A DNA stretch of 32,381 nucleotides. Source: Candidatus Bipolaricaulota bacterium (GTDB lineage: Bacteria > Bipolaricaulota > Bipolaricaulia > M55B111). A model generated the notes under the pieces. That model was not told the origin of the DNA, searched no databases, and saw only the letters and a list, made by a program, of their open reading frames with translations. Where the stretch lies: NCBI GenBank assembly GCA_021735245.1, contig JAIPHJ010000021.1, positions 1 through 32,381 of the forward strand, written 5' to 3'. Shown one piece after another: positions 19,146-32,381 of this stretch; position 1 is the first letter of the stretch, and every line of letters begins with the position of its first letter. The position numbers were made by a program, and so were the translations under genes.

Positions 19146-19415
19146 TCACCAAAACTTGCCGAGGAAGCCCCACAGCTCGCTGTGGAGAGGAATCGGCTGT
19201 TTTTTGTCCTCCAGCACTCAAACGGGAACTGGTTTTCTTTGAGAGGTTCGATTGCTTGTTTTTAGTTAATCATTACCTTTAGACTAATCAAGATACCCGG
19301 GTCCGTTTGAGTGCTGGACGATTGACTGCTGGGTCTTCTTTTGTAAAAGAACAAAGTCCGTAGTTAAACCGTTTTTTCTACAAGCCCCGTCCCTTGGGGC
19401 GTGGTTCTTGACTTT
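19146..19415 (-). ncRNA. Dispersed structured element 2 (candidate orphan omega/HEARO-like RNA)
   Basis: Read on the minus strand it starts near 19411 with GTCAAGAACCACGCCCC and a GCCCC...GGGGC hairpin. It continues to a perfect 15-bp stem CCAGCACTCAAACGG (19211-19225) pairing with 19303-19317, and ends with a GCCGA...TCGGC hairpin (19158-19197) and GGTGA. The last 26 nt (19146-19171) are identical to 22109-22134 in element 4. Both copies keep the long stem at nearly the same span (107 and 109 bp). Orientation is inferred. It directly precedes the ATG of the ThiF-like gene. IS200/IS605-associated RNAs are the closest match I can think of; no iscB or tnpB is in the window. Confidence 0.5.
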
Positions 19416-19508
19416 CCTCAATTGAGGTCAGGTACTAAATTCGCCGTGAAAGAATTCTTCCGAGATCGTTATTAGAATATAATTATACAGGCCTCACGAG
19501 CTATTTTT
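19416..19508. other. Short gap between element 2 and ParB-like gene
   Basis: Contains a small palindrome CCTCAATTGAGG just beyond the end of element 2, at about 19416-19427. If the element is an omega-type RNA, this is where a guide would lie. Nothing else is recognised. Confidence 0.3.
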
Positions 19509-20186
19509 TTAGACCCTGGAATAATCCTCCACCAGGGTAGATAGCAGATCGCCCATGTTTTCCTGTTCCCTTTCTTCCAACTGGCGCTCCGGCGGGTTGG
19601 TCCAGCTTATCACATAATCCCGCCAGTCTGAACCCCGAAGCTTTTTAGCATGATCACCAAAGAAGGCGTGAACTTCCTCGTCCCCCAACCCCTCACCGTA
19701 CTCGTCGGTAACCAGCAGGTGCGGAACCTCCTCTAAATACTCCTTCCCTGCCATCATGTAAGCCAGCAGGGAATGATGACCGTCGAAACAGACCAGTTCA
19801 CCACCACTGGTTTTCGCAATTTTGACGTTTGGCAATCCGTCGGACATCAACACGTGACTCCCGGATTCGATCTTTTCCTTCATTTCCCTAAAACTTGTGG
19901 AACGCGCCTTGATTTCAGATGCATTATGAAGGGTAATAATCCGGCGCAGTAAATTCTTTTCCCGGATCGGCTCTTTTACCATGTCCTTGTCGGTTATTTC
20001 GGGAAAAATATCTTCCCGGAACTTTTCCACGAACGAATAGGCGTCTTTGTCTCCATTATGGACGATCGTGGAGATGAAACTATTAACGGTCAGGGTATCC
20101 TTATCCCCTCTCGGCCCTTCCGGCTTGATCAATTTAACCTTTCTCTTTTTCACGGTAATTAATCTTCGGCCAAATTGATCGTTCAA
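19509..20186 (-). CDS. ParB/Srx-fold-like protein
   Basis: 225 residues, beginning at TTG 20186 with no good ribosome site; GTG at residue 12 (KKRKVKLIKP) is an alternative start. The centre (LPNVKIAKTSGGELVCFDGHHSLLAYMMAGKEYLEEVPHLLV in order) has the ParB/sulfiredoxin-like pattern of a DGHHxLLAY loop followed by a helix and strand. No HTH or plasmid-partition partner is present, so a chromosome- or plasmid-segregation role is unlikely from this evidence. Family and substrate are unknown. It is bracketed by repeat elements 2 and 3, whose ends flank it in the same orientation, so it may have been moved or trapped between them. Confidence 0.55.
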   Translation of the reverse strand: MNDQFGRRLITVKKRKVKLIKPEGPRGDKDTLTVNSFISTIVHNGDKDAYSFVEKFREDIFPEITDKDMVKEPIREKNLLRRIITLHNASEIKARSTSFREMKEKIESGSHVLMSDGLPNVKIAKTSGGELVCFDGHHSLLAYMMAGKEYLEEVPHLLVTDEYGEGLGDEEVHAFFGDHAKKLRGSDWRDYVISWTNPPERQLEEREQENMGDLLSTLVEDYSRV

Positions 20187-20235
20187 TCAACGACCCGGTC
20201 AAATCTCGCATAAACGCATGGTCGCTTCGTAATGA

Positions 20236-20297
20236 CCTGATAACTAAACCGGTTTTTGCTACAGGCCCCGCACACGGTGCGGAATTATTGACTCAAC
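20236..20297 (-). repeat. Dispersed repeat element 3 (partial)
   Basis: The segment TAAACCGGTTTTTGCTACAG with the hairpin CCCCGCACACGGTGCGG and ATTATTGACTCAAC matches the end of element 2 (TAAACCGTTTTTTCTACAAG, hairpin, CTTGAC). The hairpin sequence differs but pairs in both copies. Only the hairpin end of the element is present. Confidence 0.6.
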
Positions 20298-20488
20298 AGA
20301 GATTCAAACTTCTTCAAATCTCTGTACATGTTATAGTTATTCCAGAGAAGATAAATACGGTTCGAATCAATTTCCTCAATTAAATCCCGCAACTTTTTCA
20401 AATATTCCTCCCCGGTTAACTTTCCCGCTTCTTCCAGAAACGAATTGGGCTTAAAGTAACCCCAGCCACAGCAGCCCTGAATTAACAT
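20285..20488 (-). pseudogene. Internally deleted DUF72 (YecE-like) remnant
   Basis: 67 codons from ATG 20488, well placed after GGAGG. The first 14 residues (MLIQGCCGWGYFKP) look like the start of a DUF72 protein (GTSGWxY type). The rest (GEEYLKKLRDLIEEIDSN, RIYLLWNNYNMYRDLKKFES) looks like the C-terminal end of the same family, where a YxxFNN-like strand is followed by a helix. DUF72 proteins are normally about 240-290 residues, so roughly the middle two thirds seem to be deleted in frame. It keeps a strong ribosome site and an open frame, so a short product could still be made. The deletion claim rests on family memory. Confidence 0.5.
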
Positions 20489-20682
20489 TTCCACCACCTC
20501 CGTAATCGAGATTCACGTAAATATTTTCAACCAATAAAATCTTTAGCACGTTAGAGCCACTGTAGAATTTCGTTTGGTTGACCCTTCACAGATAAGCGGC
20601 GGAGAGCAGTTATTCGACCCAGATAGCTAATTCCACCGTTAGAGTAGAACTAAGGCTCATAAAAACCTGTGGGGCCTCCGCT

Positions 20683-21579
20683 CTAAAGCCCTCTATCGAG
20701 GCCCAGCTCCCTGGCCAGATCTACGGCTCGCCGAAACTCCGGTCCAGTTATCGGCCTGTCAAGTTTTTCGTATTCGGAAGCATTCCAGCACGGTCTGTAC
20801 TGGTCCATAACGTTTACGTAAGAATTACAAGGTACTTCTTCTCCAATGAAACGGAGAACTTTTTCCGTGCCGGCTACCCCCTCCGGTAAAACGAGGTGTC
20901 GGATAAGCAATCCCTGCCGGGCTACTCCCGAATCGTCGACCTTCAGATCCCCGACCTGGCGATACATCTCTTTTACAGCTCTTTTGTTGACCTCCCAGTA
21001 ATCGGGAACACCGGAGTACTCCTGGCCGAATTCGTTACTCGCGTACTTCATGTCCGGCATGTAGATATCCACTATACCGTCCAGAAGCTTTAGAGTCTCG
21101 AGGCTATCGTAACCTCCTGAATTATACACTACTGGGATCTCAAGCCCTCCGTCTATTGCTTTAAACAACGCCGCAACCAACTGGGGTACAAAGTGGGTGG
21201 GAGACACCCAGTTTACGTTGTGACAGCCCCTGAACTGTAACTCCAGCATACCCTCCGAAACCTCTCCAGCGGTCATCTCCCGCCCCCTTCCCAGTTGGGA
21301 CAGCTCGTAATTCTGACAGTAGACGCAGCCCAGGTTACAGTTCGACAGGAATACTGTCCCCGAACCATATCCGCCCACCAGCGGTCTTTCTTCTCCGTGG
21401 TGAGGAGCGACGGAGCTAACGAGTAGTTCTTCGCTCGAATTACATCTCCCCTTCTCACCGCTCAACCTGTTGACTCCACATTTCAGCGGACAGAGATCAC
21501 AATCTCTAAGTTTTGCTCTCAACTCCTCGACCCGACCTTCGAGCTCGGCCCGAGATAGTGACAGATAAGCCGGTTCCAT
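20683..21579 (-). CDS. PflX-like radical SAM protein (COG1313 type)
   Basis: 298 residues. The radical SAM motif is SNCNLGCVYCQNYE with C81, C85 and C88. An N-terminal cluster of four cysteines (C27, C30, C34, C46: CDLCPLKCGVNR, GRC) precedes it, as in PflX-type homologues of pyruvate formate-lyase activators. VNWVSPTHFVPQL, YNSGGYDSLETL and DIYMPDMKY are typical of the group. The substrate is unknown. There is no pyruvate formate-lyase or other glycyl radical enzyme in the window. It is monocistronic, with gaps on both sides. Confidence 0.87.
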   Translation of the reverse strand: MEPAYLSLSRAELEGRVEELRAKLRDCDLCPLKCGVNRLSGEKGRCNSSEELLVSSVAPHHGEERPLVGGYGSGTVFLSNCNLGCVYCQNYELSQLGRGREMTAGEVSEGMLELQFRGCHNVNWVSPTHFVPQLVAALFKAIDGGLEIPVVYNSGGYDSLETLKLLDGIVDIYMPDMKYASNEFGQEYSGVPDYWEVNKRAVKEMYRQVGDLKVDDSGVARQGLLIRHLVLPEGVAGTEKVLRFIGEEVPCNSYVNVMDQYRPCWNASEYEKLDRPITGPEFRRAVDLARELGLDRGL

Positions 21580-21782
21580 TCTAACACTCCCGAATTGGTC
21601 TCATTGCTGGCAATTATCCTGATTCGAATTCCGGAATTATTTTAGTTAATATCACCTAAATACCAAAACCCGACTTTCCCCGGCGAGGGAGTTGAGCACT
21701 GGTCTCCTGCCACGTTCTAACTAAATTTTCCAGTCCTTATCCTCCACTACCGGGTTGTCGGGATCCAGTCTCTGTCCAGGCT
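21580..21782. other. Intergenic region upstream of radical SAM gene
   Basis: No gene is seen. It separates the leftward radical SAM gene from repeat element 4. I find no convincing promoter match. Confidence 0.3.
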
Positions 21783-22134
21783 TATTAGGTTAAATCAATT
21801 GCCAGGTAAGCTGAAAGGCGTAGCACATTGTGTAAAATGAACTTCTTGCTCACGAATTTCCTCTCTCCTTCAACACAATGGTGAAGAACGTCCCGGGGGA
21901 TCTCGCCTGTAAGCGATCTCTTTCTAGTAGTTTTTTCGGTCTTTTACAAACCAGGACCCGGCAATCAATCCTTCAGCGCTCAAACGGGCCCAGATATCTT
22001 GATTGGCCCCGAAGGTTACGATTGACTGTAAAACTACCGATTAAACCGCTCAAAGAAGACCGGTCCCCGTTCGAGTGCTGGAGATCAACGACAAGCCGAT
22101 TCCTCCCCGGGGCTTCCTCGGCAAGTTTTGGTGA
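21783..22134 (+). ncRNA. Dispersed structured element 4 (candidate orphan omega/HEARO-like RNA)
   Basis: The longest copy. Its left third (21783-21888) matches the reverse complement of element 1, including a 22-bp exact block at 21787-21808. The rest matches element 2 in opposite orientation: hairpin region near 21881, long stem TCAGCGCTCAAACGGG (21973-21988) with CCCGTTCGAGTGCTGG (22066-22081), and the terminal hairpin GCCGATTCCTCCCCGGGG ... CGGC. The 26-nt end at 22109-22134 is identical to 19146-19171. Changes between the copies mostly retain pairing. It ends 33 bp before the hsp20 promoter. Confidence 0.5.
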
Positions 22135-22166: not shown

Positions 22167-22194
22167 TTGAAATAGGAAATCCGTCAAATATGAT
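22167..22194 (+). promoter_or_regulatory. Promoter of first hsp20
   Basis: TTGAAA (22167-22172), 16-bp spacer and TATGAT (22189-22194). The CIRCE-like repeat begins 4 bp after the -10. The same arrangement recurs before the second hsp20. Confidence 0.75.
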
Positions 22195-22198
22195 TGAA

Positions 22199-22225
22199 TT
22201 AGCAGAGTGATGGTTACTCTGCTAA
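22199..22225. promoter_or_regulatory. CIRCE-like operator, variant arms
   Basis: TTAGCAGAG, nine bases, CTCTGCTAA: exact 9-9-9 geometry of the HrcA operator CIRCE (TTAGCACTC-N9-GAGTGCTAA). The inner CTC/GAG is swapped to GAG/CTC. Pairing extends to AATTAGCAGAGT/ACTCTGCTAATT (22197-22227). An identical pair of arms precedes the second hsp20 at 22892. Confidence 0.85.
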
Positions 22226-22261
22226 TTATTTAAATCTTTCATCAATAGGGAGATGAAAACT

Positions 22262-22705
22262 ATGAGAAGAAGAGTAACAAGGTCACGTAATCGACCCAAT
22301 AGTCCGTTTTTAGTCAACAACTTGCTCAAGGATATATCCAGGAACTTAAGGAAAAGCAAGCGAACCCGCAAACGATCCCAGCTCGGTAATACGGATATTT
22401 ACGAACAAGACGGAACCCTGCACTACGAAATAGAATTACCGGGATTCGACAAGGAAGAGATCACGGTAAAAACCAGGGAAAATAAACTACTGGTCATGGG
22501 AGAGTCCGGAGAGGGAAGCGAGACTGAAGACCGCAATTACCTGGCACGGGGAAGAAGCCAGGGTACAGTCAAAGGAAGTTACCCGCTACCAGAAGGAATT
22601 GACAGTGCTGAAACTCTGACGGCAAAATACGAAAATGGAGTTCTGAACATTGCAATACCGCTACCAAAAGCAGAGGAACAAACCATCGAAGTAGAAATTA
22701 ACTAA
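22262..22705 (+). CDS. Hsp20 small heat-shock protein (first copy)
   Basis: 147 residues from ATG 22262; ATG 22253 touches the GGGAG ribosome site and is less likely. A basic N-terminus (MRRRVTRSRNRPNSPF ... KSKRTRKRSQ) precedes an alpha-crystallin domain (NTDIYEQDGTLHYEIELPG, then KEEITVKT, NKLLVMGE, and KYENGVLNIAIPLPK). Small heat-shock proteins are ATP-independent holdases that keep unfolding proteins soluble. Its strongly Arg/Lys-rich N-terminus is unusual. A CIRCE-like operator over the start of transcription implies HrcA control. A paralogue follows at 22945, separated by repeat element 5. Confidence 0.93.
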   Translation: MRRRVTRSRNRPNSPFLVNNLLKDISRNLRKSKRTRKRSQLGNTDIYEQDGTLHYEIELPGFDKEEITVKTRENKLLVMGESGEGSETEDRNYLARGRSQGTVKGSYPLPEGIDSAETLTAKYENGVLNIAIPLPKAEEQTIEVEIN

Positions 22706-22714
22706 TCTAGACTG

Positions 22715-22866
22715 CAGAGACGGCTTATACCAGCACTTATCCTTCGCAACCGGTTTGCAAGATCTTATTACCGCAACTATACCGAAGGGTAAGTGCTGGG
22801 TGCCTTAAAGCACAATACCTTGTTTAGAAAAGAGTTATAGCTAGATCACCTTTCGGGTGTTGACAA
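22715..22866 (-). repeat. Dispersed repeat element 5 (divergent, between the hsp20 genes)
   Basis: A 17-bp stem pairs CCAGCACTTATCCTTCG (22730-22746) with CGAAGGGTAAGTGCTGG (22783-22799) with one G-T wobble. The outer CCAGCAC/GTGCTGG is shared with elements 2, 4 and 6, while the inner stem is entirely different on both arms. A small hairpin CACCTTTCGGGTG (22847-22859) ending in TTGAC follows about 50 nt away, as in the other copies, and runs straight into the -35 of the second hsp20 promoter. It could also act as a transcription stop for the first hsp20. Confidence 0.6.
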
Positions 22867-22887
22867 ACTCTTAAACCCTCTTATAAT
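22860..22887 (+). promoter_or_regulatory. Consensus promoter of second hsp20
   Basis: TTGACA (22860-22865), 16 bp, TATAAT (22882-22887): full consensus at both boxes. The CIRCE-like operator starts 4 bp later. The -35 overlaps the last bases of repeat element 5, so the element may have supplied it. Confidence 0.88.
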
Positions 22888-22891
22888 AAAA

Positions 22892-22918
22892 TTAGCAGAG
22901 TGTAAGATACTCTGCTAA
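22892..22918. promoter_or_regulatory. CIRCE-like operator, variant arms (second copy)
   Basis: TTAGCAGAG-N9-CTCTGCTAA with the same arms as at 22199-22225 and a different spacer (TGTAAGATA). Conserved arms with a changed spacer indicate selection on the arms. Confidence 0.87.
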
Positions 22919-22944
22919 ATAAAACAAATTCGGAGGTGGATCTT

Positions 22945-32250: not shown

Positions 32251-32381
32251 CCAGCACCCAGTTTAATATGGACTTCAAAAATGAAACCAGTTTACAGACG
32301 AGGTTTTTTGGTGAAAGTATTTTTCACCGTCCGGTAATCGATATCAAACTGGGTGCTGGTTGAAAGCCCTGGAAGAGGGAC
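32251..32381 (-). repeat. Dispersed repeat element 6, continuing across the window ends
   Basis: CCAGCACCCAGTTTAATAT (32251-32269) pairs with ATATCAAACTGGGTGCTGG (32341-32359) with a single mismatch over 19 bp; the span of 109 bp equals that of element 4. The loop contains a smaller hairpin GGTGAAA/TTTTCACC near 32310-32328. From 32340 on, the sequence repeats bases 1-42, and the expected small hairpin then appears at 63-77 of the window start. This fits a closed circle or a repeated element at both ends. Confidence 0.65.
32340..32381. repeat. Right copy of 42-bp terminal direct repeat
   Basis: Identical to bases 1-42 (see that entry). It lies in the 3' arm and flank of element 6. Confidence 0.9.

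Follow-up and report, generated by a model that had tools for sequence, protein, structure and literature searches.

What are the two structured intergenic elements that share an end in a contig of Candidatus Bipolaricaulota, one of them next to a ThiF-like gene? The window, i.e., the whole stretch of 32,381 nucleotides that was analysed, is contig C74 of a metagenome-assembled genome (MAG) of 83 contigs and 1.95 Mb. A preliminary description, made from the letters alone, proposed that they are omega/HEARO-like RNAs that were spread by an IS200/IS605-type system and now stand alone as guides. IscB, the nuclease partner of such RNAs, is a transposon-living relative of Cas9. We therefore asked whether the elements are guide RNAs or mobile DNA, and where their ends come from.

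Two copies of the element in the window

Both copies are real, with corrected limits (Table 1). Copy A ends at 19412 rather than at 19415 as first described, and copy B starts at approximately 21881, not at 21783, as shown by the alignment of its 5′ end (GTGAAGAACG vs GTCAAGAACC). In a search of the genome with copy B, query positions 5 to 106 (approximately 21787 to 21888) matched other places independently. Positions 21783 to 21880 (AATCAATTGCCAGGTAAGC...) are thus probably another dispersed repeat, with matches at C74:14394 and on contigs C30, C29, C25, and C52. A repeat search recovered the 26-nt identical end (19146 to 19171 vs 22109 to 22134, 100%), two long flanking blocks shared by A and B (79 nt at 78% and 70 nt at 81%), and the central stem-loops of 107 nt and 109 nt, whose arms are 19 nt long. 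The GCCGA...TCGGC hairpin is as first reported, its inner stem being full in A and shrunk to just CCCCGGGG in B. The 5′ hairpin of B has decayed. We describe the elements in the orientation of HEARO RNA; for copy A this is the minus strand, and the top strand for the transposase is the plus strand.

Table 1. Features of the element family in the window, with strands in HEARO orientation.
Feature	Position	Strand	Remarks
Element A	19146..19412	-	267 bp including GTGA; limits from 73 left and 79 right ends aligned
Insertion motif GTGA of A	19146..19149	-	adjoins the 3′ end
3′ terminal hairpin of A	19158..19197	-	outer GCCGA/TCGGC, inner CCACAGC/GCTGTGG; covariation
Palindromic core of A	19211..19317	-	CCAGCACTCAAACGG...CCGTTTGAGTGCTGG, 107 bp
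5′ end of A	19385..19412	-	GTCAAGAA and hairpin CCACGCCCCAAGGGACGGGG
End-only remnant, 5′ end	20259..20292	-	GTCAATAATTCCGCACCGTGTGCGGGGCCTGTAG; L005:2614-2647; absent from the preliminary description
Element B	21881..22134	+	254 bp
Palindromic core of B	21973..22081	+	109 bp
3′ terminal hairpin of B, reduced	22095..22122	+	GCCGA...CCCCGGGG...TCGGC
Insertion motif GTGA of B	22131..22134	+	
Free-standing CCAGCA...TGCTGG palindrome	22729..22799	.	no element ends; between two hsp20 genes

Copy A lies directly before the start codon of the ThiF gene (GGTGATAAAAAATG), as had been noted, and the product of this gene matches PF00899 (E = 1.6e-76). The GGTGA at the 3′ edge of the copy is located 6 nt ahead of the ATG and could serve the gene as a Shine-Dalgarno sequence. 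In a relative devoid of the element, the region upstream of the gene reads GGGGTGAAAATG; the corresponding part of the window consists of the element and then GGTGATAAAAAATG. This comparison is consistent with the element having inserted in front of a GTGA, which may be a ribosome-binding site.

Cores of the same kind also stand alone in the window, at 22729 to 22799 and at 32251 to 32359. The two adjacent hsp20 genes (22189 to 22921) have leaders with a common 40-nt hairpin (AGCAGAGT...ACTCTGCT). The contig ends (1 to 42 and 32340 to 32381) overlap directly by 42 bp inside a free CCAGCACCCAGTTT palindrome. Either the assembly broke at a repeat or, possibly, the contig is circular.

A dispersed family with sharp ends and a constant insertion motif

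The genome-wide search for further copies that had been suggested gave 46 matches with copy B as the query and 77 (E up to 10) with a clean copy, which merge to 51 places in the host genome, far above chance. The family is also present in four genomes of the same genus and one of the same family; elsewhere among the 40 genomes searched, just two more genomes gave matches, which were weak and to one end hairpin. An exact 19-mer of the end was found in MAGs of Candidatus Bipolaricaulota with isolate names starting with GSL, which probably stands for Great Salt Lake, and Tobar. Locus L045 had the look of an independent ortholog, but with 99.9% identity to the window it adds no information. Complete copies measure 50 to 375 bp, most of them 236 to 267 bp, and no long, gene-carrying copy was present among the fetched loci. 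A number of near-identical copies are located at the ends of contigs, which is what recent amplification would produce.

Alignment of 73 left and 79 right ends showed that conservation drops sharply outside both limits. The 5′ end consists of GTCAA[GA/TT]AC, a hairpin CCCCG...CGGGG, and CTTG, following the plan GTCAANNAC-CCC-hairpin-GGGGCTTG. The 3′ end is a two-layer hairpin followed, after approximately 8 nt, by GTRA (GTGA or GTAA). The outer stem of this hairpin is GCCGA/TCGGC or GCTGA/TCAGC, and the inner one is ACAGC, AGGGC, TGCAGC, or other versions. The insertion motif is close to invariant, with frequencies of 1.00 for G, 0.99 for T, 0.68 for G or 0.29 for A, and 0.94 for A.

Paired changes, which the preliminary description had proposed to look for in the genome copies, are present in both terminal stems. 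In the left-end stem 95.4% of the cells are paired, with 61 double-change cells vs 22.4 in shuffles, and in the right-end stem 91.5%, with 13 vs 4.5; for both stems, none of 500 shuffles reached the observed pairing or covariation score. As a strand test, counts of G-T vs A-C leaned toward the transposase strand at the right end (80 to 14, mostly in one column) and were neutral at the left end (23 to 21).

The copies are located at unrelated loci, mainly intergenic: 10 of 37 break a long reading frame, compared with 39 of 48 control points. This distribution, together with the position of copy A in a gene leader, would suit immobile, domesticated hairpins, namely terminators or leader structures that recombination has multiplied. 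However, near-identical copies with sharp ends at unrelated loci, the constant insertion motif, and one empty site make that explanation highly implausible. The empty site comes from a single filled/empty pair, in which a relative carries a 263-bp insertion and the host locus is empty; no target duplication is visible, the empty locus being diverged and its junction therefore not base-exact. Beyond the element ends, the flanks of the copies are uninformative as to target duplication.

Palindromic cores in place of an RNA core and a gene

Where an omega-RNA core and iscB would be, the interior of the element is non-coding palindromic DNA. The core palindrome is variable and evolves fast. Past the CCAGCA sequence its arms pair within copies at 216 of 270 positions, compared with a mean of 191 and a maximum of 209 in shuffled controls. 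In some copies (L044, L046, and L047), such cores are nested in the terminal hairpins.

According to the guide-RNA hypothesis, the copies are transcribed omega-RNAs that guide an IscB made elsewhere; the 5′ flank would be the guide, and GTRA would be the adjacent motif. Copy A has a strong predicted RNA fold when compared with shuffles (z = -4.43), and this, like the paired changes in the stems, speaks for the hypothesis. As DNA, the same copy deviates from chance to a similar extent (z = -3.87), so that folding cannot separate RNA from single-stranded DNA, and the predicted fold of copy B is no better than that of shuffles (z = -1.18).

Resemblance to HEARO RNAs and IscB elements

An Rfam search of the window at the gathering threshold gave no match, and a permissive search of the 18.9- to 22.9-kb region gave one chance match and nothing else. 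A first weak full-length match to HEARO (24.9 bits, E = 0.0027, in a 401-base stretch) begins exactly at the element boundary. Among 100 Bipolaricaulota genomes, the HEARO model (RF02033) yielded 12 matches of 17 to 32 bits in four genomes, all of the host's family. We checked 10 of the 12, and all ten begin at the 5′ end of an element. None of the copies scanned reached the gathering score of the covariance model (best 31.6 vs 83 bits). Separately, L117:53-214 gave a sub-threshold match to the c-di-GMP-I-GGC riboswitch (47 bits; gathering score, 59).

The 5′ domain of HEARO, GUCA-CCCC-hairpin-GGGGCUUG, is present at the element boundary and is the same in real IscB elements. We also sought the P1 helix of HEARO (GUCAa..uUGACcAG): its 3′ strand, TTGACC(C)AG, occurs in 9 of 77 copies, and P1 pairing overall is weak, slightly above that of shuffles. 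The core signature CACC..GGATGC..CCAGTCC was found in 587 kb of loci only in a copy of the sister genus (L174 of genome G005). This 204-bp element (L174:1530-1761) carries the HEARO core CACCATGGGATGCCTCCCCAGTCC between the two ends of the family and is located directly upstream of what we take, from a 240-aa reading frame, to be a tatC-like gene.

HEARO/IscB elements insert just before ATGA or GTGA, and the family likewise sits just before an ATGA/GTGA-like motif. IscB elements of Oceanisphaera (L191) and Acidithiobacillus (L194) plasmid loci carry, just ahead of ATGA/ATGG, a 3′ hairpin of the TTCC type, and those of Oceanisphaera and Shewanella (L193) start with GTCAATTAC. An ORF-less HEARO on a Planktothrix agardhii plasmid (NZ_LR882951.1) has both IscB-type ends and is followed by ATGA. 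The family and HEARO have in common the 5′ end GTCA..CCC-hairpin-GGG(G)CTTG, the plan of the 3′ terminal hairpin (TTCCTCCC..GG.ATCC), and the insertion motif, and a minority of copies has the 3′ strand of P1 as well. In contrast, no iscB was found with the family, the core signature is lacking from its copies examined apart from the sister-genus element, and scores are 17 to 32 bits vs 83. Because threshold, core signature, and iscB all gave negative outcomes, we did not file the family as HEARO RNA, but its kinship with HEARO is supported.

The matches at the exact 5′ boundary, and an insertion motif and flank geometry that agree with those of IscB elements, could also be claimed for orphan guides. 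Nevertheless, the confinement of the core signature to one sister-genus copy, the gap between best and gathering scores, and the negative search for an IscB domain in six genomes (see below) render that hypothesis improbable. The stand-alone guide function put forward initially is thus not upheld, while the view of mobile elements of the IS200/IS605 type with HEARO-like features is strengthened by the boundary matches, by the occurrence of both ends in IscB elements, and by the paired changes in the stems.

Comparison with IS200 and with PATEs

On the opposite strand, intact IS200 TnpA loci of the phylum have ends built to the same plan, and this assigns the family to the IS200/IS605 superfamily. 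These tnpA-only elements (L136 to L144) share with it the two-layer left-end hairpin and a right-end hairpin followed by a TTCTT-type end; they differ by the presence of tnpA, a terminal motif that is mostly TTTAC, and the lack of a HEARO match. The family might accordingly have taken its ends from tnpA-only IS200, its HEARO likeness being the common hairpin of the superfamily. The similarity of the left-end hairpin and of the hairpin plus TTCTTTAC at the right end, as well as the absence of the HEARO P1 from most copies, agrees with such an origin. On the other hand, the intact-IS200 genomes among the 100 searched gave no HEARO match, the 5′ end of the family is GTCA plus GGGGCTTG as in HEARO whereas IS200 mostly has GTAAA plus GGGGCATT, and the L174 element joins a HEARO core to the family's ends. 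We thus consider a plain IS200 origin unlikely, albeit the most serious competitor; the HEARO matches and the ends of real IscB elements are the reasons why we reclassified the family.

In Haloquadratum, palindrome-associated transposable elements (PATEs) are present in high copy numbers and include core-deleted versions (PMC3119063). Like them, the family lacks terminal inverted repeats and the length needed to code for a transposase, shows no visible target duplication, has near-terminal palindromes related to IS605-type ends, and occurs in many copies, some core-deleted (PMC3119063). It differs by its bacterial host, by its IscB/HEARO-type ends, and by the CCAGCA palindrome that most copies carry at one fixed place. 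The CCAGCA...TGCTGG cores, with inverted ends and found alone or nested in terminal hairpins, are reminiscent of the small mobile repeats SMR-A, for which PATEs serve as targets in Haloquadratum (PMC3119063). Unlike SMR-A, they occupy one position in most elements, and their mobility is putative.

Search for a nuclease and a transposase

The preliminary description had seen neither iscB nor tnpB in the window, and this extends to six genomes, including that of the host (G000 to G005). The N-terminal RRXRR domain of IscB was not detected in any of them by a profile search in which the run's own controls gave no signal, although the same model gave 219.8 bits on the Oceanisphaera IscB. For tnpB, PF01385 was absent from the host genome and PF07282 from all six, with positive controls. 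We found no active transposase with the end type of the family, in MAGs that are 70 to 86% complete, such that the partner could be missing. BLAST searches of the element ends in plasmids and phages returned no meaningful match.

The sole Y1 protein of the host MAG is a RAYT (NF047646, 106 bits), which raises the idea of REP/BIME-like palindromes spread by this enzyme. Its gene (L031, G000:C76:12170-12433) is surrounded by a dense array of palindromes that are GC-rich and REP-like. The repeats around it differ from the family, and elements of 230 to 270 bp whose two ends differ do not qualify as REPs; we rejected this RAYT as the driver, and the REP/BIME scenario has very little chance of being correct. 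The only IS200 of the genus (G003) was also discarded as the driver, as it has an internal stop and different ends.

A proposed gene-less passenger with IscB-type ends

Altogether, we propose, with a probability of about 0.78, that the family consists of non-autonomous elements of the IS200/IS605 superfamily with ends of the IscB/HEARO type, similar to PATEs and probably mobilized by a Y1 transposase that acts in trans. In our judgment it works like a PATE, as a gene-less passenger of such an enzyme. A Y1 HUH transposase, most likely supplied in trans, would recognize the two hairpins on one strand and excise the element in single-stranded form, and the latter would be pasted beside the short target 5′-TYAC on the transposase strand (GTRA in our orientation), without target duplication. 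The ends point toward an ancestor of the IscB/HEARO type, as does the P1 strand in the minority of copies that have it. The family may have descended from such an ancestor by loss of the core, as suggested by the one copy with a HEARO core and by the similarity of the ends. That sister-genus copy is a candidate intermediate.

In a more elaborate scenario, which we regard as rather unlikely, an IscB-type lineage in hypersaline Bipolaricaulota shed its nuclease and omega-RNA core, kept its ends, and gained fast-evolving palindromes, and an IscB/TnpA pair of the same cells, acting in trans, would still spread the elements and perhaps protect their excision sites. If so, the elements would be true IscB-dependent satellites.

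The passenger model describes a large, apparently recently active family with IscB-type ends but neither nuclease nor guide core. It accounts for many contig breaks in these MAGs from salt lakes. The family would show which features transposition needs, namely GTRA and the hairpins of the ends, and how IscB elements can give rise to satellites without genes.
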